Assembly: GCA_023078555.1 (NCBI GenBank)
Contig: CM041198.1
Coordinates: 10,669,874 to 10,733,873 of the forward strand
DNA length: 64,000 bases
Source of the DNA: Ulva prolifera
Taxonomy: Eukaryota; Chlorophyta; Ulvophyceae; Ulvales; Ulvaceae
Direction of reading: 5' to 3'
Part shown: piece by piece, positions 29,713-47,080 of the stretch
How the letters are laid out: the number at the start of each line of letters is the position of its first letter
How positions within the stretch are numbered: position 1 is the stretch's first letter
The notes under the pieces: model-generated
The model's database searches: none
Seen by the model: the letters and a program-made list of their open reading frames with translations, nothing else
Told to the model about the DNA's origin: nothing
Translations under genes and position numbers: made by a program

Positions 29713-30480
29713 TCGCCAACACTGGTCCGTGTACACATCTGACCAGCTGGTTGCTTGTATGTGCTTTGCATCTCCGCTTCAGTAGAAGCTGCTGGCTCCT
29801 GGTAGACTAGCAGCACAAACCCATGTTCAGGTAGACACAATGAAGTATTGATGTAAAAGTTGCCTGAGCAGAATGTTGCTGCTCATGTGCTACAAATCAG
29901 GCGCACTATCAACCACATGCCCCCTGCCTATGCAACATCACTTCCATCCATGGCTGACCATCCCATGTCCCGCAACTCCCTTGCCCTGTCGCCCATGCTG
30001 TGATTTCCTGGGCATTGCTCAGCTGGGCCAGACTGTGCACGTTTTCCGTGCTACGACTCATCGTGGGGGGCTCTGTTTTTGGGTGTCCTGACTGCCTAGA
30101 AGGAGCCGTCCTTGGCCTGCCCTTATGGCCTATCTCCAGCAGGCCTGATATATGTCTGGCAGGCCTCAGCGCAGTAATCACCCTGAGTTCAAAATCTGCT
30201 CACGATCCGCTCCTGAGAGAATGCAATGCCGAGTTTGCACAGCCCCATGCGCTTGCAGCTGACCCGGCACATGGCAGACGTGCTACATGGACTGAGTTGG
30301 AGAGGCAGGTACCACCATGGGCGCCGCCCAATATGCATAAAGCCTCGCGACCACATCACAAAAGTAGAAAGCAGTGCCCCCGACAGTACTACTGTCACAG
30401 GATATTCCAGCCATTTCGGCGCGGTCGATCAGCGCAAAAAACCCTAATCGGCACAATGAGACCAGTGCTCTACAGCTGGA
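29713..30480. other. Downstream of the OPR-like gene, no gene recognised
   Basis: It contains the candidate poly(A) signal at 29852-29856. The plus-strand frame from 30000 on has no recognisable domain. Confidence 0.4.
29852..29856 (+). terminator. Candidate TGTAA polyadenylation signal of the OPR-like gene
   Basis: TGTAA lies 140 bases past the stop at 29712, which also favours ending the gene there. Confidence 0.4.
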
Positions 30481-30492
30481 ATTTTTCCTGGC

Positions 30493-30632
30493 GGGAAAAC
30501 CGATGGCCCGCTCCGCTCGCCGTCGGGATTTTGCCAACGTTTTCCGAATTTCGACGGGAACACAGTCGGTTTGCACCGCAAGACCCCTCGCGTCGTCGGG
30601 AAAACCGACGGCTCGCTTCGCTGGCCGTCGGT
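30493..30632 (+). repeat. Direct repeat, two 35-base units 105 bases apart
   Basis: Units at 30493-30527 and 30598-30632 share GGGAAAACCGA, GGC, CGCT and GCCGTCGG with a few changes. Within each unit CCGAYGGC and GCCGTCGG are near inverted copies, so each could form a hairpin. The parent element is unidentified. Confidence 0.6.
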
Positions 30633-30691
30633 ATCTCGGAGATAATTCGCCCCTTTTCTCATAATTTGTCGGGAAACCGATCGGCATGTAT

Positions 30692-30766
30692 GTATGTAGT
30701 TACAAAGGACAGAGGCCGGGCATCGAGCCATCGCTAGGAACTCACACGCAAATCCACTCATTCACC
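30692..30766 (-). mobile_element. Retrotransposon 3'-end fragment (copy D)
   Basis: On the minus strand it carries GGTGAATGAGTGG, GATGCCCGGCCTCTGTCC and CCTTTGTAAC (30699-30708), the same order as in copy B (19790-19863). It is followed by a short (CATA)n tail. It is severely 5' truncated. Confidence 0.65.
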
Positions 30767-31069
30767 AGGTCAGCGCACGCCCACTACGGGCAAGTGCACT
30801 GCACATGAGAAACTTCAAAAGCGTCTTCACAATTAGAAAAAACACAGGCATCCAGCTTCACAAGGAAGCAGCTAGTCATCAACCACGCAGCCCATCGTCG
30901 CATGATCGTCAAAGCCGTTGCAGCAAACAGCGCTGGCGTACAGCCAGCAATAAAGCATGTCCTCACGCATCGCAAATGCTCAGAGAGCGGGGTATCGTAG
31001 CGGATGAACATGGGATCATAACTTCCACACTGGGAACCTGTACGCAGCAGCTGGGTGCCGACAGAATTG

Positions 31070-31432
31070 GCTGTACGCAGCAGTGCAGCAGGACGCAGTT
31101 ATGTTTCGCGTTAAAAGGGGCCCAGCAGCATGCCAGCAGCCCCCTATCGCACCCAGACCACCACGCTGCCAGCCTGCCAAGTCCGGTGGCCAAACTCAGG
31201 CCTGAAACTCGCGTGTGCCATCATGCACCACACAGCCTCAAACTTGACACAAGTACCACTCTATGTCTCAATATTGTTACTGCATAGTTCCAGCCGCATC
31301 GAGCGTCTATGAGTGATCTCGCCACTGGTAGCTGTAGGCCCCGCTCGCCAGCGTGGGGGTGCCCGTGCAACCTGTCTCTCCACAAGCTTGTGCTGGTGAT
31401 GACACAGCATAGATTAGTTTGATTCGCTGCTA
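31070..31432 (+). repeat. Dispersed repeat family R1, copy A
   Basis: Matches 62455-62780 in the same orientation and 35225-35560 in the opposite orientation. Shared blocks include GCCAGCAGCCCCCTATCGCA, GTGCCATCATGCACC, AGCCTCAAACTTGACACAAG and GTAGGCCCCG. Similarity stops shortly before the hAT element at 31487. Identity of the family is unknown and no protein is recognised in it. Confidence 0.75.
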
Positions 31433-31478
31433 CACCTGATGCTTTTTGTACGCGACGTAAATGGTCGATGGTGTGGTG

Positions 31479-31486
31479 ATCGCCAG
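31479..31486. repeat. 8-bp target site duplication of the hAT element, left copy
   Basis: ATCGCCAG here is repeated exactly at 32743-32750, on the other side of the element. Eight base pairs is the hAT hallmark. Confidence 0.95.
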
Positions 31487-31783
31487 TAGAGCTGTAAATT
31501 TAATTTTAATCCCATTTTAATCAATTTTAACAAGCTATTTTAGTTAACTATATTAACGTTAAAACGCGTGAGTGGCGTTAAAGGGGGTATTTTTACTTTT
31601 ATTTTACTTTAACACTTTTTTAATTTTAACCGGGCTTTAAAGCTAAAATGGCAACCCAAAAGGGCTGTATGTAGATGACTTTGACCATCCTCATAGGACA
31701 AACAACTCTAGCAAAGCACGTTATATAAAGCTCAGTCACAGCTAGTCACCTACCGTTGGCTCCTAGTACTTATCTGTGCCGCT

Positions 31784-32508
31784 GTGCACTTGCTCATGCT
31801 TGAAGAACTAGGAACTCTAGACCTCAGTTTGAATTGGCAGCTGCAAGTTCTAGACATGACAAAAGACAAGCACACTGTTGTTCAACAACGCCGTGAAAGC
31901 AACATGTCACTTTCCCTCACTGATATCAAGGCTACTCTCCTGTCGGGAGCTCTCAGAGCATTTCTTGGTGTGCATGAGACTGAGGCTCTGAAGCACTTGC
32001 ACATAGATAGCCGCAAATTGCAGCAAGTTGGGGTAGATGGTGAGCCGCCAGTCGCCTTTTGGATGCATCAAGTCCCAGAAAAGTGTTGAGAGAGGCTGCA
32101 ATCAAAGTGATGTCTGCGAAGCCCTCCTCAACAGCTGTCGAGAGGCTGTGGAACTCATTTGGAGACAACTTGACTGCCAAGCGAAGGTCAATGAAGAACA
32201 AGACGCTTGCAATGATAGTGTACGCCAAGATGAACGTGCACCTCCATCGACAAATTCGAGCAGACTGTCGAAGCGTGGAGCTTCAACAACAGCACCATCA
32301 TGTTCGTTCAGGAGGACTTCTGAACGAACATGATGGTGCTGTTGTTGAAGCTCCACGCTTCGACAGTCTGCTCGAATTTGTCGATGAAGTGGATGAGGAG
32401 GAGTTGGTGATGCAGAACATGGGTTCCGTTGCATGTGACCAAGATTCTGACAGCCTAGGAGCATCTCCATCGTCGTCAAGTTGTTCAGGCGATGCAGATA
32501 GTTGGTAG
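31784..32508 (+). pseudogene. hAT transposase remnant, C-terminal dimerisation region
   Basis: The frame at 31784-32089 leads into 32059-32508 after a shift. The second frame has STAVERLWNSFGDNLTAKRR and TLAMIVYAKMN, the conserved hAT C-terminal dimerisation motif. Downstream the coding sequence runs into a perfect inverted repeat (32245-32386) and an acidic Ser-rich tail. The catalytic DDE core is missing. Confidence 0.8.
32245..32386. repeat. 67-bp perfect inverted repeat with an 8-base loop, inside the hAT remnant
   Basis: Arms 32245-32311 and 32320-32386 are exactly complementary; the loop is GAGGACTT. A transcript would fold into a 67-bp hairpin with no mismatch. The repeat lies in the transposase coding region, so both strands read much the same protein (QQQHHHVRS, EAPRFDSLLEFVD). 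It is probably a local inverted duplication; it could feed small-RNA production against the family. Confidence 0.97.
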
Positions 32509-32742
32509 GTCGTGCAATAGATGCATGTAGGTGGTTGTGGACATGTCTGTGCCGTGTTTATGCCGTGCAATTGGCAGCAAATGCCTCTTCGACGTATTTA
32601 ACAACTTTAATGGTAAAGTGGCAAAGCACCATTTTAAAACACGTTTAAAGTAAAGCTTTTTGACCGTATTTTACTTTAATTTTACTTTAGCTTTGTTAAT
32701 TAACGTTAAATCGTGCTTCCAAAAGTTCAATTTACAGCTCTA

Positions 32743-32750
32743 ATCGCCAG
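32743..32750. repeat. 8-bp target site duplication of the hAT element, right copy
   Basis: ATCGCCAG, identical to 31479-31486. Confidence 0.95.
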
Positions 32751-33365
32751 GCAACACCGTTGCTGCACCGCTGCCGCTCACTGAACGTCCCAAGGACACC
32801 AGTATGTACAAAACTTCCTGTGTATGGCTAATCTGGTCCTGCAAGTGGCATCGCTGCATCTGTACTTCAGCACGTAGATTCCATCGTTCATATGTGGAGT
32901 ATGCAGTTCCAGCTGACTGCAGAGCAAACGGAATGCAGTTGCCTCCGATCTGCATTCGGTGAGAAAATCTCTAGCTTATCCTACCATGCAATAGAATTCA
33001 TGATATCCTCCAGTGGTGGAGGTCCATCCAGAACTGTTTCTGCCTGATCGGTGTCCAGCCTATCATTGCGGGCTGCAGTTTGTATATTAGTTTACAGAAT
33101 ATATTTACATTTGCGTAGACTTCTTTGGCTTGATGCAATGGATGTGCTGCGACGACTGTTTCAAGAAGAACTCAGCACAACTCAGCAACCCGCTTGCACA
33201 CACCAGCTGACATGCACCGTCTATAAAGCTACAGGAGCAGCTGTTGTATAATTTCGAACGGACAAAGAGTGCAGCTGCTGTCCTTCAGCCGGATCAGGAG
33301 GCACTGGTGCTGAGCAATGCAGTTCAGCTCTAGAGAGCCCAGAATCATGTACCGCCTGTCCATTC
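32751..33365. other. Between the hAT element and the 183-bp array, nothing recognised
   Basis: No ORF longer than about 70 residues and no recognised repeat apart from proximity to the array. Confidence 0.4.
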
Positions 33366-34670
33366 TTGCTTCCATCAATAGAGGCCCAAGCTTTTCTGCA
33401 CATGGCAAGGACTGTGACGACTAACCTGCAGCTTCAGCTGCACATTGAGTGCAGTATGTTGGTATATGCCTGTGCCGGCACCCAGATCGGCACATCTGCG
33501 GCACTCATACAGCACACCCAAGGTCACCGTTCTAGAACTGGAGATCACACAGCTCTGAAATCTGAAAATGTGGATGCACCTATCTCAAGGACTATGGATG
33601 CCAATATTCAGTTACAGCTGCTGCACATTGCGTGCATGGAGATGGTCTGCGCTTGTGCTGGCACACAATACGGCAAATTTACGGCACTCGCACAGCACAC
33701 CCCAGCTTACCACTGTGGAACTGGAGGTCGCACAGCTCTGAAATTTGAATATGTTGATGCACCTGTGTCAAGGCGTATGGCTGCCAATATTCAGCTGCAG
33801 CTGCTGCACATTGCGTGCATGGAGATGGTCTGCGCTTGTGCTGGCACACAATACGGCAAATTTACGGCACTCGCACAGCACACCCCAGCTCACCACTGTG
33901 GAACTGGAGGTCGCACAGCTCTGAAATTTGAATATGTTGATGCACCTGTGTCAAGGCGTATGGCTGCCAATATTCAGTTACAGCTGCTGCACATTGCGTG
34001 CATGGAGATGGTCTGCGCTTGTGCTGGCACACAATACGGCAAATTTACGGCACTCGCACAGCACACCCCAGCTCACCACTGTGGAACTGGAGGTCGCACA
34101 GCTCTGAAATTTGAATATGTTGATGCACCTGTGTCAAGGCGTATGGCTGCCAATATTCAGTTACAGCTGCTGCACATTGCGTGCATGGAGATGGTCTGCG
34201 CTTGTGCTGGCACACAATACGGCAAATTTACGGCACTCGCACAGCACACCCCAGCTCACTGCTCTGGAACTGGAGATCACACATCTCTGACATTTGAATA
34301 TGTAGATGCACCTGTATCAAGGAGTATGGCTGCCAATATTCAGCTGCAGCTGCTGCACATTGCGTGCATGTTGATGGGCCGTGCTTGTGCTGTGCACACC
34401 AGACTCTCGCACAGCACAGCCGTGTTGACATGTACTCATTCCATTGCAGAGGTTACATACTCCGGTACCTATGCATGTACATTAAGACCCCGCTCAAGTT
34501 TCAATGGTGGGCGTGTTGCACTTGCTCTGCTTATGACTGCCAGTTTGTTGCAGAGGCATGTTCTTGCTCTGCAACGATGTCTGAGCGATGATCGAATTGG
34601 ACCTCTTGTTTTGGTGGATTGTGTCGAGCTATGTGTAGCGAGGTGCAGCTGTATGCAGCGAGGTGGATAG
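33366..34670 (+). CDS. 434-residue ORF made of 61-residue repeats, probably not a conventional gene
   Basis: A single open frame across the whole 183-bp tandem array; 183 is a multiple of three, so each unit encodes 61 residues (core LLHIACMEMVCACAGTQYG, then TALAQHTP and YVDAPVSRR). The protein is Cys/Ala-rich with no known domain or clear signal peptide. The frame continues about 50 residues past the last unit into repeat R1. It may be open because the units are young copies of one open unit. Whether it is expressed is unknown. Confidence 0.35.
   Translation: MLPSIEAQAFLHMARTVTTNLQLQLHIECSMLVYACAGTQIGTSAALIQHTQGHRSRTGDHTALKSENVDAPISRTMDANIQLQLLHIACMEMVCACAGTQYGKFTALAQHTPAYHCGTGGRTALKFEYVDAPVSRRMAANIQLQLLHIACMEMVCACAGTQYGKFTALAQHTPAHHCGTGGRTALKFEYVDAPVSRRMAANIQLQLLHIACMEMVCACAGTQYGKFTALAQHTPAHHCGTGGRTALKFEYVDAPVSRRMAANIQLQLLHIACMEMVCACAGTQYGKFTALAQHTPAHCSGTGDHTSLTFEYVDAPVSRSMAANIQLQLLHIACMLMGRACAVHTRLSHSTAVLTCTHSIAEVTYSGTYACTLRPRSSFNGGRVALALLMTASLLQRHVLALQRCLSDDRIGPLVLVDCVELCVARCSCMQRGG
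33415..34512 (+). repeat. 183-bp tandem array, about six units
   Basis: Unit starts at 33415, 33598, 33781, 33964, 34147 and 34330, exactly 183 apart. The third and fourth units differ at two positions by my comparison; the first and last are the most diverged, typical of unequal exchange. The R1 copy at 62.5-63.6 kb lacks the expansion. Confidence 0.93.
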
Positions 34671-35560
34671 GCAGCCATGTTTGCAATGTTTCTGCAGATC
34701 TGCAGCCCTTGATGTGGAGCAGTTATGTTAAGACAGCGTGCTGGCACGGTCTTTCGCGATCAGTACATTAATTCCCGCAACGAGGCAGCGATGAATCCAT
34801 TGAAACAAGTGCAATCAAGCGTGGGGACCAATGCTGCTGCAGCAGTTGGGCTGTAAGGCACACACCGCCTGTACGGCAACTGTGGTGGTGTTCCTTTTGG
34901 CAACCCGAAGATATCCCGTGTTCCTGACCCACACTTACAGCTACAGTTTCGGACAGACATCGGCTGCAGCCTCCTTCGCATGTGTGTTCAAAGACGGGCT
35001 GCGATCCTTCACCCACACGACATGCACGTTTTTGTAGGACCTGTGTGCGCACGCAGCGCGGCATTGACATGGCACCCATGAGCACCGCTGTAAGGCACCT
35101 GTTGCAAGCTTTCATGTAACCGGCAATGCGACGGTACGGTTTCTTGCGCGTTACTTGCGCTCTGAAGAAGCCGTATTCGACACGAGGATACAGGTGCTGT
35201 ACGTCAGACACAGCACGTTGCTATGATATAATTCGTATGGTACAGCAGCTAGTCAAATGAAGCCATACTGTGTCATCACAGGCACAGAATTTGCGAGAGA
35301 ACGGTGGCACGGACAACATCACGCTGGGCTGACAGCTACCAGAGCCAAGGTCACGCAGAGGTGTTCGATGCAGCTGAAATTGAGTAGACATAATCTGCAG
35401 ATATAGAGTGGTACTTGTGTCAAGTTTGAGGCTGTGTGGTGCATGATGGCACATGCGAGTTTCAGGCTGGAGTTTGGCCACCGGAGTTGGCAGGCTGGCA
35501 GCGTGGTGGTTTGGGTGCGATTGGGGGCTGCTGGCAGGCTGCTGGGCCCTAATAACTGCA
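34395..35560 (-). repeat. Dispersed repeat family R1, copy B (inverted)
   Basis: On the minus strand it follows 62455-63620 through its length, with small gaps. Shared blocks include GCCTCAAACTTGACACAAG-like and CGTGTCGAATACGGCTTC words, GCAACTGTGGTGG, GGTCCCCACGCTTG and TGATGTGGAGCAGTTATG. Its outer part is also the inverted partner of copy A at 31070-31432. The minus frame at 34768-35211 (VEYGFFRAQ, CLTAVLMGAMSM) is partly alike in copy C, so the family may once have coded for a protein. Confidence 0.8.
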
Positions 35561-36100
35561 GGACGCGGGACCGCTGAAGCCATGATCATCTCGAAGCCGC
35601 TAGGGCGCCATAAAAGGGTATAGCGGCGCCACTGAAACGTGAATCTAGATGAAAAGCTTCGCTGAACCTCGTCCGCGCGACCGCTGACAACGGAAGGCAA
35701 CATGCAGACATGTGTGCCTCGCCGGTACCGCCCCAAGCCGACCCGCAGAACGGAGCATGCTGGCAATCCGCCATGCCCAGAAGCGAGCCAAACGCCGCAC
35801 AATATTAAAGAGATATCTTGTAGTGCAACCGTATGACCTTCGCCACCAAGGGACACAGCGGCAGGAGTAGCAGACATGCCGTCACAGCTGAGTCGGGCCA
35901 GAGCGTGCCAAGCCTGTGGTGCGCAGAGCAGAGATGACATGAAACGAACAAGCGCGAAAGAATCAGACAGCAGTATGGACATTTAAATCAACGAGTACGA
36001 GCCGGCCGTGCACCGCAGCACAACCGACCCGAGCTATGGAGTGAAGAAACGAACGACGATAATCAATATAAGATGTCCACTGTCTGTAGTTACCACTGTC
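35561..36100. other. Between repeat R1 and the LINE 3' end, nothing recognised
   Basis: No gene or known repeat could be supported here. Confidence 0.4.
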
Positions 36101-37580: not shown

Positions 37581-40500
37581 ATGTCTCTCTCGAACGCCAA
37601 CTCCAACGCCAACTCTCCTCGCGAGGAGAGGCGTGACGATGCTGACCAGCAGCCTCTCGTCGACAGGGACGCTGACCAGCAGCTCCCTGACGGAGAACAG
37701 CCTGCGGGTATGTTGCTCCGGGGCGGCCGAATTGTCCGGCCACGACCCTCTTCCCACACTGGGCAGAGCAGTCAGCAGGTGCCTTTTTCCTCTCATGTTG
37801 TGAACGATCCTGGTCACACTGAGTCACTCATATCACTCGAAACGTTAACCGAGGCGCTGCGCGCATCTCGGGGGCGTAGCGAACCTGATTTGACTAAAGG
37901 GAAATTGCCTGATTGGAATTACAAGACTGAAAGTTTCGTTGCGTACGAACAGAAAGTCTTTTTGTGGTTAGGTCAGTTCGAGTTAGATCATTTGTTGCAG
38001 CACGCACCGTCTGCGGACGAACAGCGTGTTCATGCTAGGGCGAGGACACAGGTCCTAATGTCTTTGCCTGACGCGGATAGGACGACTGTCTATCGCATGT
38101 CACATTTGTGTGAAGCATGGTCTTACTTGACTGCCAAGTACAGACCTAGCACTGAAGCCGAGATCCACAGACTGTGGAGTCGGTTCAATTCTTTGTCACA
38201 ACACAATAAAGATGTCGCGACATATTGTGGTGAGGTGATGAGTGTTTACACTCAACTGGAGGCACTAGGTGCCGATGTGGGCCAGCGATGGCTACGTTTG
38301 AAACTGTTAGAGGTGGGGGAGGAGTTCAACGCTGTGCGCGGCGAAGTTCAACACTCCTCCCCTCATGTGATAATATCTCGTTTAACTGAGCATGCTGATT
38401 TGCTCAAACAACAGCAGTCGCTGCAGGCTAGGTCTGGGGCGCCCGCGGGCAAACCAGGCCATGGCTGGCGCAAGCAGCACCGTGGTGACGGCCCTGTGGT
38501 CGCTGCTCTCGCAGCTGGCCAGGCTCCTCGCGAGGAGACCAGGACCTGTTTCTTCTGCAAGAAGAAGGGACATTTGCGTGCGAACTGCCCCCAACGCAAA
38601 CAGGCTGCGGCCAGAGATGTTTGCACTATTGAAATGCCTGCCAAGTATCCACAGCCGGACGCGTCCATGCCGTGGAACATCATTGTTGATAGTGGGTCGG
38701 ACATGCATATAGTAGGAAATCGGGAAATGTTCACTGAGTACGGCCCGTGTCAGAAAGTTGCCAATCTCGCGGGACCAGGGCAGCTTTCTATCATGGGTAG
38801 GGGAACCATTCAGGTGAACCTGGGTGCTTATGTGGACAAGCATGGGAACACGCACCCACTGGATGTGGAAATCCCTGGTGTTTACTATGCCCCCGAATGT
38901 CCGTACAACCTGCTCAGCACGATGGGTCTTAGATCAGAGCAGATGTTCCTAGACACGCGTAGGAATGTGTTATATGTCCCTGGTCTGGGTGATATGGCTA
39001 CCGGCGTGGAAGATGACGTCAAGTATCAGGAACTAGATGTAGACGGTCATCCTGTTTTTGCTTTTAAAATGGCGGTAGATACGAAACCCATTCTCGTCGG
39101 TGCGCCTGTCAATAGGGGGGTAGTCTGGTCTAACCAGAGCAGTCCGACCTCAGTTATTGAGGATCAGCAGCAGTGGCATCATGTGGCGGTTGCGGCCATT
39201 GACCTGAAGCGACCCAATGCTGGGGGAGCTGAGGTCCCACATGATGCGTACTTGCTGGAACCTGCTTTTCTAGCACACTTGTCTTTTCATCAGTCTAATT
39301 GGGTTCTGAAACGTATGCAATCTAACAGTGAATTTTATGGTCATTTGAATTTGGATGTCGATTCCGAGCCACTGGGGAATCGGTGTCACGGCTGCAGAAT
39401 TGGCAAAGTGCCTGCGGGCAAGTTCTCTGCCAATGATCGTGAGCTCATGGGCCAGGCCAAGTGGCCTGGTGAGCAACTGCACGCCGATTTAGCTGGTCCT
39501 GTCTCTCCGGTAGGAATTGGTGGTGTGAAATATGTTTTGTTTGTGATGTGTGCCTTTACCCGTTATACTTTCGTGGTAGGTCTGCGCAAAAAGAGTGAGG
39601 CTGCGGCCATGATCTCTTATATTATCGAACGCATTCGGGTGAATGTGGTGAAGCCAGGTGAACCGGGTGTGCGCATCCTACACACCGACAAAGGGGGAGA
39701 GTTTATGGTCGCGGCCTTAAAGCTCTACCTCCAGCGTCGTGGCATCACTCACCACTTGACCCCCACAGCCGCTCATCGCTGTAATGGCATGATCGAGAGG
39801 AGGATCGGAGTGGCCTTTGAGTCACTCCGTGCTGTGCTGCTCGCGAGCGGCCTGCCTCTTTTCCTGTGGATAGAATGCCTCGCCAGCGTTGTCCATGGTC
39901 ACAATCTCACGCCATCGTCGGCATTGTACCATGACAAACTGGCGAGCATCCTCAAGGGCCTGAAAGCTCAGCATACTGTCAATGCGTCTGCGGACGTTGA
40001 CGAAGCTGAAAAGAGCCTGGGGAAGGGTAAGCGCATGAAAAAGGCCGAGCGCGATAAGCTGAGGGATGAGGAGAAACGCAAGTACAAGTTGCTTGCGACG
40101 ACAGAATTAGATGAGTTTTTAGTGCGGTCTTGTGATAAGGATATCATTCCTTATATGGCCTTTTTCCGAGACACCTCCGTTGAGGTGTTCCAAGATCTGC
40201 TGCGGCAGCAGCGTCCATGGGGGGTTGAAGTGTATGCATACCCTAGGGATGACAAGCTGCGGAAGTTGTCCCCGCGGGGTGTGCCTGCATACTGGGTCGG
40301 GGCTGGGTTAGGCCCCAGCATGCAGCGTGTGTACGCCCAGGACGTTCCTGAGGGTAGGGTTTTTGTTGTGCGTCAGGTGATGTGCACTGCGGATCAGATG
40401 ATCCGGCACGTACGCAAGTACGATGCGTCCGCCGTTGTGGACAAGAGGGAACCTAAGGAGTTTGCGAACTCCTATACGGTTGTTTTCGAGGGGGACGATG

Positions 40501-43136
40501 AGGGTGAGCGTGTGACTGATGCTGATGTCCCTCCTTTCGCGACAGAGCACACGTATGATGGGGGAGTGTTGCGCCGTCTGCGTGACCAGCTGCACACCCC
40601 CCCTGGTCATGGTAGGGTTCCTGTCATGGAAATGACATTCCGGCAGGACAACCCTGACCCTGATCCCACTGCGTACTCTCCACGATTTGGAGCTGGCTCC
40701 TCTGCGGAGATTATCCGACGTGACCCTGCTAGGGCAACACCGGAAATAGCCAGAGCAGCTTTGCATCGCACGCGTGCAATGTCCAGAGCTGCTGCTCACC
40801 CCGCCGTCCCTGCTCCCCCTCGTGTTCACGGCGAAGTGCATCACCCTGTCGCCACGCCCTCTCGCACTGCGCGGTATGTTGTCACGCGCAATGCTGTGTT
40901 GCACGACCCTGGTGTAGAAGCTGCGTTCCCCATTCAAATGTCTGTCAGTGCGTCTGACGAGGACATGGATGAGGATGACGACGGTCCCGGCATCTATGAT
41001 GACGATGACGAACAGCGCATGGACTACACCGTCTCAGATGATGAAAGAGCTGCGGCTCATCAGAATCTGGAGGCTCAGCGGGTCCGTTCTGGGAGTAATT
41101 CGGCAGCGGCCTCAGCATCTGGCGCGGGGGCAGTTGCTCAGCCCTTGCGAGGAGCTGAGGCGCCGAGGCCCTTCTGGGAGGATGAGCCAGATGAGGTGGA
41201 GACCGGATCCGAATTAGGGGGAGAGGATCCGGACCCCTCAGCCGCAGTCGGGGTTGATTTACCTGACGAGGTGAGGGCCATTCCAGCCGCCTTGCCTCGT
41301 ATTAAAATCAATCCTCTCGTACGCAGACGCCTTGTTCCATTGGCTGCGGATGTAGCAGCTGTACAAATGCATGAGCCTGCGGGCTCTGACATTGCTAGTA
41401 GTGAAACAGTTGTAGCTGCTATTGATGTTTCAGCTTGCGATCAGGACACATCAGCCGCGGCTGACTGTGGAGTGTCCTGTGCAGGCCTGAAGCCTCAGCA
41501 TGTGGAGTCTGGTGAGCAGCAGAATGCTCAGCGTCGTGGGTCGCGCCGAGCAGCTGCCGCCAGGAAGCAGAAGGCCTCCTCCGACCCTGATCTGCCTTCT
41601 ATGAAGGAAGGACTTGCGGGTCCGGACAGGGATGCATGGCTGCGTGCCATGCAGGAGGAGGTAGATGCACTGGGTGAGCACGGAACCTTCGGGTTGTGCT
41701 ATCTGCCTGCGGGCAAACGGGCTATCTCGGGCAAATGGGTGCTCAAGATCAAGCGTGGGCCTGCGGGGGAGATTCAGCGCTACAAGGCACGTTATGTAGC
41801 GCGGGGTTTTTCTCAGGTAGAGGGTGTAGACTTTTTTGAGACTTGGTCACCTGTTGGGAGCTATGCGACACTTCGTGTGTTGCTGTCAGTTGCTGCTCAG
41901 GCAGATTTAGAAATTAGACACATAGATATACAGTGCGCTTTTCTGAATGGTGAGCTGGAGGAGGAAGTGTTCGTTGAACAGCCCCCGTACTTCACTGACG
42001 GGACAGCACGTGTATGGAGATTGCATAAAACCCTGTATGGCCTGAAGCAAGCTGCTCGCGAGTGGCATAAAGCTTTAATAAGGGTCTTAGCAGAGATGGG
42101 ATTTGTGTGCGCACAAAGTGATCCCGGACTGTATGTTAGAACATCTGGTCTTTGTTTTATTTTCCTGTGGGTTGACGACTTGTTCATATTCAGCGGCACT
42201 GCGGGGCTGCAAGAACTTGTCGACATAATTCTCACAAAATTTGAAGGCAGAGACCTGGGTGAACTAGCATGGGCACTTGGCACTGAGATCATGCGTGATC
42301 GTAAGGCCAAGACAATCACCATGACACAGCGAAACAAAATCCATAGCCTGCTTGAAAAGTATAGTATGTCTGATTGTCGAAAGTCTCCCACTCCGTTAGT
42401 GCCGCGGCAACAACTGAGGAGTGTGAAAGAGCACCCGGACCTGGAGAAAGCCAGTGCTGCTGAGCATTCCAGGTTCATGAGTGCTGTAGGAAGCATCCAG
42501 TACATTGCAGGAGTGACACGACCTGACCTCAGCTACGTGGCACATGCCCTGGCCCGGCACATGTCCAGTAGTCTGAAGGAACATTGGTTGGCTGTGCAAC
42601 ACGTTCTGAGATACCTGCAGTCCACAAAGAATTTAGGAATACAATTTGTAGGCTCTGTGGGGCATGGGTGCCTGTTAGAGGCATTTTCTGATGCAGATTT
42701 TGCGAACTCTGCTGATTTGAAGAGTGTGTCTGGTATGGTTCTTCGAGTGTATGGGAACTGTGTTCTCTGGCGCTCGAAGAAACAGAGTATAGTGGCTGGG
42801 GATACAACAGAGGCTGAGCTCATTGCGATGAGTGCAACAGCCAACGAGTTAATGTGGGTGAAGCAGTTGCTTCTCGACCTAAAACTCGTCCCGTATAAGC
42901 CAACTCTGTGGGGTGATAATAAAAGTGCCAATATCTTGGCAGTGAATGCTGTGTCCACTGACAGATCCAAGCACATTCGTGTGCGGCACTTGCGAGTGCG
43001 GGAATATGTCCAGATGGATGAACTTAAGGTAGCATGGGTGGGCACTGTTGATCAGTTAGCGGATGTGTTTACCAAAGTGCTGCCCGGACCTGCTTTGTTA
43101 GAAGTTCGTAATAAACTCCAGCTAGTGGAGACGTAG
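37581..43136 (+). CDS. Copia gag-pol polyprotein, 1851 residues, uninterrupted
   Basis: One frame encodes the whole polyprotein. Gag ends with a CCHC zinc knuckle, CFFCKKKGHLRANC (C323, C326, H331, C336). The aspartic protease has IIVDSGSDMHIV (D370). Integrase has the HHCC finger (H and H near 566-570, C602/C605) and the DDE triad near D636, D703 (HTDKGGEF) and E739 (NGMIERR), with 35 residues between the last two. Reverse transcriptase has KWVLKIKRGPAGEIQRYKAR, HIDIQCAFLNGELEEEVF, LYGLKQAAREWHK and the active-site box WVDD at 1530-1533. RNase H follows (TEAELIAMSATANE, LWGDNKSA). A 300-residue acidic/Pro-rich stretch lies between integrase and RT. The order protease-integrase-RT fixes it as copia rather than gypsy. 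Confidence 0.97.
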   Translation: MSLSNANSNANSPREERRDDADQQPLVDRDADQQLPDGEQPAGMLLRGGRIVRPRPSSHTGQSSQQVPFSSHVVNDPGHTESLISLETLTEALRASRGRSEPDLTKGKLPDWNYKTESFVAYEQKVFLWLGQFELDHLLQHAPSADEQRVHARARTQVLMSLPDADRTTVYRMSHLCEAWSYLTAKYRPSTEAEIHRLWSRFNSLSQHNKDVATYCGEVMSVYTQLEALGADVGQRWLRLKLLEVGEEFNAVRGEVQHSSPHVIISRLTEHADLLKQQQSLQARSGAPAGKPGHGWRKQHRGDGPVVAALAAGQAPREETRTCFFCKKKGHLRANCPQRKQAAARDVCTIEMPAKYPQPDASMPWNIIVDSGSDMHIVGNREMFTEYGPCQKVANLAGPGQLSIMGRGTIQVNLGAYVDKHGNTHPLDVEIPGVYYAPECPYNLLSTMGLRSEQMFLDTRRNVLYVPGLGDMATGVEDDVKYQELDVDGHPVFAFKMAVDTKPILVGAPVNRGVVWSNQSSPTSVIEDQQQWHHVAVAAIDLKRPNAGGAEVPHDAYLLEPAFLAHLSFHQSNWVLKRMQSNSEFYGHLNLDVDSEPLGNRCHGCRIGKVPAGKFSANDRELMGQAKWPGEQLHADLAGPVSPVGIGGVKYVLFVMCAFTRYTFVVGLRKKSEAAAMISYIIERIRVNVVKPGEPGVRILHTDKGGEFMVAALKLYLQRRGITHHLTPTAAHRCNGMIERRIGVAFESLRAVLLASGLPLFLWIECLASVVHGHNLTPSSALYHDKLASILKGLKAQHTVNASADVDEAEKSLGKGKRMKKAERDKLRDEEKRKYKLLATTELDEFLVRSCDKDIIPYMAFFRDTSVEVFQDLLRQQRPWGVEVYAYPRDDKLRKLSPRGVPAYWVGAGLGPSMQRVYAQDVPEGRVFVVRQVMCTADQMIRHVRKYDASAVVDKREPKEFANSYTVVFEGDDEGERVTDADVPPFATEHTYDGGVLRRLRDQLHTPPGHGRVPVMEMTFRQDNPDPDPTAYSPRFGAGSSAEIIRRDPARATPEIARAALHRTRAMSRAAAHPAVPAPPRVHGEVHHPVATPSRTARYVVTRNAVLHDPGVEAAFPIQMSVSASDEDMDEDDDGPGIYDDDDEQRMDYTVSDDERAAAHQNLEAQRVRSGSNSAAASASGAGAVAQPLRGAEAPRPFWEDEPDEVETGSELGGEDPDPSAAVGVDLPDEVRAIPAALPRIKINPLVRRRLVPLAADVAAVQMHEPAGSDIASSETVVAAIDVSACDQDTSAAADCGVSCAGLKPQHVESGEQQNAQRRGSRRAAAARKQKASSDPDLPSMKEGLAGPDRDAWLRAMQEEVDALGEHGTFGLCYLPAGKRAISGKWVLKIKRGPAGEIQRYKARYVARGFSQVEGVDFFETWSPVGSYATLRVLLSVAAQADLEIRHIDIQCAFLNGELEEEVFVEQPPYFTDGTARVWRLHKTLYGLKQAAREWHKALIRVLAEMGFVCAQSDPGLYVRTSGLCFIFLWVDDLFIFSGTAGLQELVDIILTKFEGRDLGELAWALGTEIMRDRKAKTITMTQRNKIHSLLEKYSMSDCRKSPTPLVPRQQLRSVKEHPDLEKASAAEHSRFMSAVGSIQYIAGVTRPDLSYVAHALARHMSSSLKEHWLAVQHVLRYLQSTKNLGIQFVGSVGHGCLLEAFSDADFANSADLKSVSGMVLRVYGNCVLWRSKKQSIVAGDTTEAELIAMSATANELMWVKQLLLDLKLVPYKPTLWGDNKSANILAVNAVSTDRSKHIRVRHLRVREYVQMDELKVAWVGTVDQLADVFTKVLPGPALLEVRNKLQLVET

Positions 43137-43511: not shown

Positions 43512-46500
43512 ATGCGGGAATGAAAGTCCCCGCCCGCCCCCTGCCCCCCTTGAGAGTGACCCCGAATTGCGGTGGATTCCACCGCAACCGGGAATCGCTA
43601 CGCCCCCATGTGTGTCAGCTTTGCGTACCAGCAAAGTTTAGCTGCCTTGATCATTGAGCTCACAGGCAGAAGGCCCGTGTCGGTAAAACAAATCTCCTCC
43701 CTGCAATCGAACTGGTGCAGACCAAACACCATGCGGATTGCCTTTTTACAGATGGTATCAAGTTTGTCGAGTTCAGTTTCGGGCCAATCCAGACCTCAGC
43801 CCCATACAAAGCAGGAGTATATATGAACGCATAAACAAGGCGGAGCCGGGCGGTCACCGGGAGGTAGTGGCATCGCAGCACTGGCCGCCATGCGCCAAGT
43901 GCCTTGTTCATCTTTGCGCGTACATGATGCATATGTTCAGACCAAGAGCCATTTGACTGAAAGAAAACACCCAGGTATATGTAGTTGTGAACAGTCTCCA
44001 ACTGCGACCCCCGCAGCTGGAAGACGACTGGTGCGCCGCCCCGCGGCTGATTGAACACCATAGTTTTAGGTTTTAACACATTTGGTAAGGAGCGCCATTG
44101 AAACAACCATTTATCGATTGTATCAATGTGTCCCTGGAGCCCTGCCGGTGTCAAGGACATTGCATTGACATCGTCTGCATAAGTGAGTCCGGAAATTTTA
44201 TCGGTGTCTGGTGAGTCAAGGGGAATGCAGAGTTCTTTTGGACGGGTGTGCAGTGTTTCAAGCAGATCATCAATGAACACATCAAAGAGAATGGTTGACC
44301 GGGGGCCGACCCCGAGGGTGATGGGGAAGTATGGTGATTCCTGGTCTTGGAAGCGCACCCTTGATTTTGTGTTTGAGAGCATGTGTGCGATGACCCGACC
44401 GAGGCGGCCTGTCACTCCTTTCTGGCGCAGTTTGTACAACACACCGTCGCGCCACACAGTATCGTATGCTTTCCGGATGTCCAGGAAGAAAGCATAAAGT
44501 GGAGTGTCCGCCGCGGCAGCCGCCCGGACAATGCGTGCAAAGGTGTGGACATGGTCTACGCAGAGACTCGTGGAGGGTTATATTGTTTTGGAGGCGGGAC
44601 CTGAGTAGTGTGCTGAAAAGCTTCCGGAATATTGAAAGCAGTGTGATACCCGAGTAGTTGGAGGGGTCTGTTGCATCCCCGGCTTTGTGGAGGCTTACAA
44701 TTGTTCCGAGTGACCATGCATTGGGAATGGTTTCGTGCGTCCAGCAGAAATTGAGGAGCTGCAGGACGACGGTTTGCAATTGCGACCCCCCGGCCTTCAG
44801 TAGTTCGCAAATGATATCATCGTGGTCTGCGGCTATCCAGTTGTGCATTGTAGCAAGTGCTTGTTGAAGTTCTTGAAGTGTGAAGGCATCATCCATCTCT
44901 CGGTTGTGTTCATGCTCATTTTGGCGCCATGCGTGCAATTTGTCTCTGACATGTGCATCAGTTTGCTCGCAGAATGTGGCATGTGGGACCGGGTTCATTT
45001 CAGATTGATAGTGATTCGAGAAAACCTGCATCACTGTGTCGATATTATCAGTGGGGACTCCCCCAGACATAACAGAAGGCACGGGGTGCTCGGCCGTCGA
45101 GCCACCCCTGGTTAGCAGTTTTAACAAACGTTTCGCTGACACCCATGAAACTTTAGACTCAAGTCCTGGCGTGCACGTTTTAGAGACATGGTTGGCTTGC
45201 TGTTTGGTGCATGCACGTTTGAGATCGCGTTTCAGCTGGTTCTTTGCACCTCGGCGTTGCTGGAATGCTAGCTTGTCAGTGTCGCTGCCGGTCCGGCAAT
45301 GTGTCTCATGAAGGGTCCAGCATTCACGTCTGAGGTCTGCATATTCTTTGTTCCACCATTGCATGCGATGGGTCCGTACCTGATGTTTCCCAAAGCATTT
45401 CTCTCCAGTGGTACGTAGGATGGTTGTCAAGGCAGATGTGAAAGTGTTGGCAGCTTCAGCACGCGGCATGGTTCATGAGTCCATGTCGTGCAGCAACTGG
45501 GCAAGGGGCTCTTTCAGGGCTGTTTCAAAGTTTGCAACTGTCTCCTCGTTTTGCATTGCTTTCCTATTCCACCGTTTTTTTGGTGTGATCGGGCGCATTT
45601 GCGCTTGCTTCTGTGTGTGGCATGTGGCAGTGACAGTGTGAGCAGCACGTGATCAGAGATACACTGCCTAGCAGAGTGGATTGCAGGTGCATTGCAACGG
45701 TCCCTACATGCAGAGCTCGTCAGACAGTAGGCAACAACAGAGGTGCCGCCGGCATGCATGCATGTCGGCGAAAAGCCAGTGTGGTTGTGCATGACATGCA
45801 TGTTGCATTGTTCTACCATGTTTATTAGGCGACAGCCCTGTGAGTTACGGAACGTTTCATTATGTAGTGGAATATGATGTGAGTTTTGTGCATTCCCAAT
45901 CCTGGCGTTGAACACTTCCCCGCACACAATGATGTGGAATTCCTTGTCAGTCAAGTAGTGTATGTCATGTGTGAGAGCTTCCAGCTCAGCAGCAAACCTG
46001 TCACTGTCTGCAGGACGGGTGTGTGCCACCGGCCATATGTATACACTTCCGATTGCAGTCTTGGTTGTGTGTCTGCCGGCGCACCCAGGTCGTCTGATGA
46101 TTTTTCTTGGAACCCCAGGATAGTGTGTGTGTAAGGTGTGACAGTGTGTCTTTCACAATGATGCCTGTGCCGCCGCCGGTCCTTGTTTGAGTTGTGTATC
46201 CCGGAGCACCATATGCAGTATACCCGTGCGCGGCAAGCATAGAAGTTTTCTCTGTGTCCGACAAGTCGCACCAGGTTTCTTGAACTGAACAAATGTCCAC
46301 ATGTTCTGATGACAGAAATGCACAAACATCCACATGTTTAGATGACAAGGATTGTGTAAACATACCATTCACATTCATGCTTCCAAGCGTGACACATGTT
46401 GGTGCTTCAGATGTACCCGCCTGGTTGTCATGTGCAGAGGCGAGAGGTGCAAAGCGGTTGGCCGCGGTTGCAGGTTCGGTGGTGGTAGGGTGGGGGCGAG

Positions 46501-47080
46501 CGCGGAGTGGTTTGTTCCGGCCATCGCCTTGTGGATACATCATGTATGTGAGTTCCATTTTGGTAGATGGAGCCGTGCGGCAACCCCGAGGAAGCAGTGC
46601 CTCTGAGCATGCTTGGGCAAAAGGAACCACGCCCTGTGCGACAATTGTCGCGATGTCGAGTCTTTTGTAGACGGACAACAGGAGGAATGGCTGCCCAGTT
46701 GTTTTTTTTCTGTGTCGTGTACGGTTGGCGGCCTGAAGTATTGAGAGGGTGGCGCTGTGTGAGGTCACGGAGAGGAATGCGCCCGTGTGGCAGACTACGT
46801 CACAAGGGCCAAAGAAAGAGAACACTACGCGATTTGGTGGCACAACTTGCATCACCTCCTCATGCTCATTGTGCTGCTGATGCCTTATGCCGGTTCGTTG
46901 CATCACAGGCGCGTTCACTGTCTCAGTCATAGAGAGTCGTGTTGGAGGGGAGAGGACCAGGCTGTTGCGGTACGGATCGAAAACGAGCATGCGCACATGG
47001 ACAACTACGCACGTGGCTGTGCGACATTGCACCAGCCACCATGCAACATACACAAGAGGAGAGTAAGCAGGCTCCCTCAC
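43512..47080 (-). pseudogene. LINE ORF, endonuclease and reverse transcriptase part, frameshifted
   Basis: Three main frames: 47080-46001 (leader and N-terminal half of the endonuclease), 46029-45514 (rest of the endonuclease), 45469-44282 (linker and RT fingers) and 44457-43660 (RT palm and thumb, YADD, YLGVFFQSNGSWSEHM). The D of the usual GDFNA box is altered (GEVFNARIG). Past 43660 another frame continues (SSMIKAAKLCWYAKL) to the copia border. At least three frameshifts and one stop make it inactive. Confidence 0.85.

Follow-up and report, generated by a model that had tools for sequence, protein, structure and literature searches.

An inverted self-copy of transposase sequence within a multicopy, internally deleted hAT-type element of Ulva prolifera

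A stretch of 64,000 nucleotides of Ulva prolifera contig CM041198.1 (the window) contains a long perfect inverted repeat at positions 32245-32386, and the question raised by this locus is how such a hairpin came to lie in transposase-derived sequence and whether its perfection reflects recent origin or maintenance. The reverse complement of the right arm was found to equal the left arm at 67/67 bases, in agreement with the first-pass annotation, which had reported a perfect 67-bp inverted repeat with an 8-base loop. When mismatches are allowed, the repeat grows to 32242-32314/32317-32389 (73 nt, 97% complementary). It is the sole perfect inverted repeat of at least 13 bp with a loop of at most 50 nt in the 64-kb window. 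The RNA fold predicted for 32242-32389 has an energy of -136.6 kcal/mol, whereas shuffled sequences averaged -40.5 (z -25.8) and none of 200 folded as well. An Rfam scan of positions 30000-36000 identified no family at the gathering score. A scan for promoters and terminators of the sigma-70 type was set aside as unsuited to a eukaryote, its terminator-like matches at the hairpin merely restating the stem. The features of the hairpin and of the element that carries it are collected in Table 1.

Table 1. Features of the hairpin and its carrier element (positions in the window)
Feature	Position	Strand	Basis
Left 8-bp target site duplication ATCGCCAG	31479-31486	.	
Whole hAT-type element (non-autonomous, 1256 bp); strand set by the transposase-derived frame	31487-32742	+	Ends, target duplication, 12 genomic copies
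5' terminal inverted repeat TAGAGCTGTAAATT	31487-31500	+	
TATA-like box TATATAAAG, candidate promoter	31722-31730	+	Inferred from sequence only
Internal-deletion junction (TTG)	31878-31880	+	Comparison with related copy L023
Open frame of 154 codons between stops, reading the transposase C-terminus through the hairpin	32044-32505	+	
75-bp insertion (25 codons): 70 nt inverted copy and 5 nt (GACTT)	32245-32319	+	Absent from L020, L021 and L023
Left arm, copied in inverse orientation from the transposase sequence on its right	32245-32311	+	
8-nt loop GAGGACTT	32312-32319	+	
Right arm, original transposase C-terminal coding sequence	32320-32386	+	
3' terminal inverted repeat AATTTACAGCTCTA	32729-32742	+	
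Right 8-bp target site duplication ATCGCCAG	32743-32750	.	

The terminal repeats of the window copy recur, with at most two mismatches, at the ends of the other eleven hairpin copies found in the genome. Comparison of the C-terminal frame with the Pfam model Dimer_Tnp_hAT gave 13.8 to 18.3 bits, short of the 21.4-bit cut-off. When a six-row profile was compared with PDB sequences, the best four of the six listed were hAT-type transposases (two entries called Hermes and two called simply TRANSPOSASE), with E values of 0.064 to 0.08 and alignments at the C-terminal end; the remaining two were ribosomal protein L18 (E 0.3 and 1). The 8-bp duplication and this weak C-terminal support are each modest, but taken jointly they are convincing as signs of an hAT-type element. 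The first-pass annotation had likewise assigned the element to this group, and its ends and target duplication bear this out. It had also described an internal deletion and a hairpin built of transposase coding sequence: the element is ~718 bp shorter than L023, with a microhomology of 2-3 nt at the deletion junction, and the duplicated sequence codes for the transposase C-terminus. The term "remnant" used there understated the element, which is an end-intact and recently mobile, though internally deleted, member of a family. An older and larger inverted repeat surrounds this region (31118-31436/35239-35549; 227 nt at 86% and 89 nt at 73%, or 314 nt at 81% when gaps are allowed), and the ~3.8 kb between its arms contains the hAT element, as if inserted into the older structure.

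Scoring covered every one of the 17 candidate places that match the arm in the genome (88.9 Mb, 44 contigs). The whole hairpin occurs at twelve of them (eight at 100%, two at 99% and two at 96%), and only a single arm at the other five (L020-L024). A genome search for related elements had been proposed in the first-pass annotation; it yielded twelve full-length elements (1252-1268 bp), all twelve with the hairpin. The 8-bp target duplication is perfect in nine of these, has one mismatch in another (L016) and is lacking in two (L014 and L015). A match to the 3' end (77-80%) without one to the arm was found at at least 22 other loci (40 of 89 candidates scored). Two of the hairpin copies, L018 and L019, carry an 8-bp insertion, differ by few bases and are located 3.3 Mb apart on contig C5, a pattern that suggests a separate small burst.

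The two copies without normal target duplications, L014 and L015 (C2:10926548-10992634), are ~66 kb apart in the same orientation, their outer sides have a common 8-mer (GTGGAGCC) and their right flanks share 46 identical nucleotides. Macrotransposition of the L015-L014 stretch was suggested by the agreeing outer 8-mers and was dropped: the predicted joined donor site gave one match, which is near chance (0.3 by our own estimate; control 0), and the shared 46-nt flank is part of a repeat present at 20 places with at most three mismatches, nine of them exact. This pair may be the product of aberrant transposition or repair.

The single-arm relatives bear on how the hairpin arose. Alignment of L020, L021 and L023 gave an uninterrupted junction, CATCTC followed directly by (C/A)T(G/A)AAC, at the point where members of the hairpin family carry an additional 75 bases; the hairpin is therefore a derived 75-bp insertion. 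The translation of L022 also reads through without the insert. Seventy of the 75 inserted nucleotides are the reverse complement of the following 67 nt and the preceding three (CTC), while the remaining five (GACTT) have no clear source. The copied stretch thus spans the insertion point, as is expected if synthesis switched strands, ran back over the junction and then resumed.

We hold with good confidence that the locus belongs to a young, internally deleted, non-autonomous hAT-type (Ds-like) family, with an inverted insertion made by repair, amplification in trans and a hairpin that is a passenger by default. It is inferred that, during repair of a break inside the transposase gene of one founder element, DNA synthesis jumped to the other strand. 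There it would have made a reverse copy of 70 nt of C-terminal coding sequence and gained 5 nt before returning to its course, which would have left the 75-bp insertion beside its source. The founder may have had the internal deletion beforehand, or may have acquired it in the same or another event, and would have been moved in trans by transposase made elsewhere and amplified to twelve copies. The arms would then drift apart in older lineages. If transcribed from the TATA-like box of the element, the hairpin would give an RNA with a 67-69 bp duplex that Dicer could cut, acting mainly against its own family. Several observations weaken this explanation: the hairpin junctions show little microhomology (~1 nt at the first) and five inserted nucleotides are unexplained; the searches found no autonomous element able to supply the transposase; and the length of the insertion is a multiple of three with no stop, which a passenger need not be. 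The uneven rate of change in L018 and L019 and the G-U pairs kept by two stem changes, both set out below, also count against it.

Microhomology-guided template switching has been described in the gap repair of DNA transposons (PMC8277862), and filler sequence in maize Ds2 elements (PMC3260210). The captures of the former source (gap filling/FoSTeST, Pack-TIRs) resemble the present case in that switching occurs during repair inside a transposon and the altered element is then amplified, but those set out there take sequence from outside the element, whereas here the element's own sequence was taken and inverted (PMC8277862). Maize Ds elements (Ds-del and the filler-bearing Ds2) are also hAT elements that are non-autonomous and end-intact, with an 8-bp duplication, an internal deletion and extra sequence at the break (PMC3260210). 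The added sequence found here is an inverted copy of the element's adjoining coding sequence rather than foreign filler, and the terminal repeats also differ (TAGAGCTGTAAATT here, C/TAGGGATGAAA as printed for maize Ds; PMC3260210). In addition, no autonomous partner of the present family was found in the searches made. Structurally, the element is a deletion derivative of Ds-like type whose filler is an inverted copy of its own sequence. Hairpin-forming MITEs that act as small-RNA precursors (for example Made1 and hsa-mir-548; PMC1784062) share with it a multicopy, non-autonomous nature and an RNA that is a possible hairpin precursor, but a MITE hairpin arises from the terminal repeats and not from an internal duplication of coding sequence. 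The present arrangement was not described in the titles or abstracts surveyed in the open-access literature.

The first-pass annotation had offered two readings of the perfect arms, namely that the duplication was young or that it was maintained. The former agrees with the divergence of the copies. Five differ from the window copy by only 1 to 4 substitutions in aligned columns and share with it the same 4-bp loss (TGTT; six copies in total), while L011 and L012 show 18 differences and L016 to L019 show 24 to 32. The arms are perfect in eight of the twelve copies because those copies are recent; L016 and L017 have one mismatch each, and L018 and L019 five each. Maintenance was rejected in view of the density of substitutions and the absence of compensation. 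After gapped columns were dropped, variable sites among the twelve copies numbered 6/142 in the hairpin versus 51/~1106 elsewhere (Fisher P = 1.0), and all six changed stem positions break DNA complementarity, with none (0/6) compensated in the opposite arm. Thus neither compensation nor a lower substitution density in the stem, as would mark an RNA hairpin under selection, was seen. Two of the six changes (32291 A to G and 32305 C to T) would still allow G-U pairing in plus-strand RNA, so RNA pairing is harmed less than DNA pairing. In the lineage of L018 and L019 the hairpin changed faster than the rest of the element (5/142 versus 6/1105, P = 0.005, in a test picked post hoc), which argues against constraint but also against a uniform neutral clock.

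Could the hairpin nevertheless act as a mobile silencer, transcribed from its own promoter and diced to siRNAs that silence the transposase source and its own family? It could feed RNA interference only if transcribed, and a TATA-like TATATAAAG is located ~520 nt upstream on the transposase sense strand in all twelve hairpin copies. The RNA would form a very stable 69-bp duplex, and domains of RNA-interference proteins are encoded in the genome. Piwi-domain (AGO) matches were identified at two loci, with 5/6 over the cut-off, and the best solved-structure match of an AGO exon is Protein argonaute 10 (7sva). One RNase III domain and one Dicer-dimer domain lie ~9 kb apart on the same strand and are perhaps one gene. 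Matches to the RdRP domain on C9:2689500-2712649 (8/8 over the cut-off; one with six in-frame stops) resemble three adjacent gene copies in a 23-kb stretch. Part of the perfect 21-mers of the arm also recur in some single-arm loci (L020, 27/47; L021 and L022, 7/47 each; L023 and L024, 0/47). Against this stand the unconstrained stem pairing and the recent amplification of the family, which effective self-silencing should hinder, as well as the lack, in the scans made, of a transposase-length gene at the single-arm loci. At 67 bp the duplex is also short beside the duplication in Mu killer, which covers ~1300 bp of mudrA (PMC3440606). Taken together, a silencing role of this kind is considered unlikely.

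The search for a target bears on this directly. The first-pass annotation had expected that RNA from the hairpin would match an active transposase, an expectation not borne out among the five single-arm loci of the assembly. No transposase-length gene was found there in the ORF lists of L020, L021 and L023 or by tblastn; the screen of L024 consisted of tblastn, which gave nothing, and one open frame of 170 aa. Likewise, no close full-length transposase emerged from searches with C- and N-terminal transposase sequence, from the hAT family search or from ORF and tblastn scans of the loci examined; of 16 regions selected for closer reading, four were covered. A 10.2-kb stretch between matching ends (C6:6153958-6164200) has no matching duplication and only small frames. 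Loci L056 and L057 contain only distantly related sequence, with 34% identity to row 1 of the protein alignment, and at this protein identity the hAT-like frame of L056 is too far removed for siRNA targeting. The transposase that moved the copies must have come from somewhere, and a target may lie outside the assembly, which may be incomplete.

The first-pass annotation had taken Mu killer (Muk) of maize as its model. As described in PMC3440606, Muk is, like the present element, an internally deleted transposon derivative with an inverted duplication of transposase coding sequence; it derives from MuDR, occupies a single locus, has ~1300 bp of mudrA duplicated and silences active MuDR. The present family is of hAT type, with a 67-bp duplication, twelve mobile copies and a TATA-like box of its own. 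It has the inverted duplication in a deleted element, but its hAT-type ends and hAT-like C-terminus are not those of a MuDR/Mutator derivative, and an active full-length matching target was not found among the five single-arm loci; within the limits of the scans, a Muk-like target is missing here. The hairpin family is therefore not a member of Muk and would work, if at all, like Mu killer. The model is itself less settled than had been assumed: according to PMC3440606, silencing maize plants contain short antisense RNAs that are unable to form large hairpins, although the long-hairpin route is left there as a possible contributor.

An extension of the silencing idea is that the family spreads its own trigger, each insertion adding a promoter-bearing, transposase-derived hairpin until the burst limits itself by RNA interference. 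Such self-limitation seems distinctly unlikely, and it is similarly doubtful that the family represents a device like Mu killer made mobile and multicopy.

It is highly improbable that the element acts through a protein repressor, a truncated transposase that retains the dimerisation region, carries 25 inserted residues and poisons the transposase. The internal deletion and the 75-bp insertion both preserve an open frame in L011 and L012, which spans 266 codons between stops or 238 when counted from the first ATG, and the fragment has a weak hAT dimerisation match (16.7 bits). However, six of the twelve copies, including the window copy and the youngest, have lost 4 bp; this loss (TGTT) severs the window frame from the upstream frame still joined in L011 and L012, leaving 154 codons stop to stop. 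The frames are also shortened in L016/L017 (235 codons) and L018/L019 (204 codons), and an insert of 75 bp would stay in frame by chance one time in three.

An assembly artefact or chance palindrome is virtually negligible as an explanation: library and assembly errors can generate long palindromes, but the same hairpin is present in twelve copies at twelve places, most with target duplications, and its arms have diverged in four of them (L016-L019).

Overall, the locus is a case of ordinary transposon biology with a testable RNAi angle. If the hairpin is inert, it provides a clean and datable case of break repair inside a DNA transposon that gave rise to an inverted duplication multiplied by transposition, with the insertion, the single-arm relatives and the decaying copies together in one genome. 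If it is active, it would provide a natural test of the idea that deletion derivatives hold their own family in check through double-stranded RNA, in an organism whose genome has AGO, RNase III/Dicer-dimer and RdRP domains.

Several other features were identified in the window. At positions 33437-34468 a 183-bp unit is repeated five times in tandem, the copies being 66-88% identical to the first. The unit length is divisible by three, and an open frame of 434 codons (33366-34670) covers these units and has no Pfam match at E 0.001. A copia-type retrotransposon frame of 1851 aa (37581-43136), with reverse transcriptase, integrase and gag matches, is uninterrupted and so probably young. On the minus strand, the frame at 46001-47080 has an endonuclease/exonuclease/phosphatase match (28.3 bits; cut-off 24.5) and is perhaps part of a non-LTR retrotransposon.
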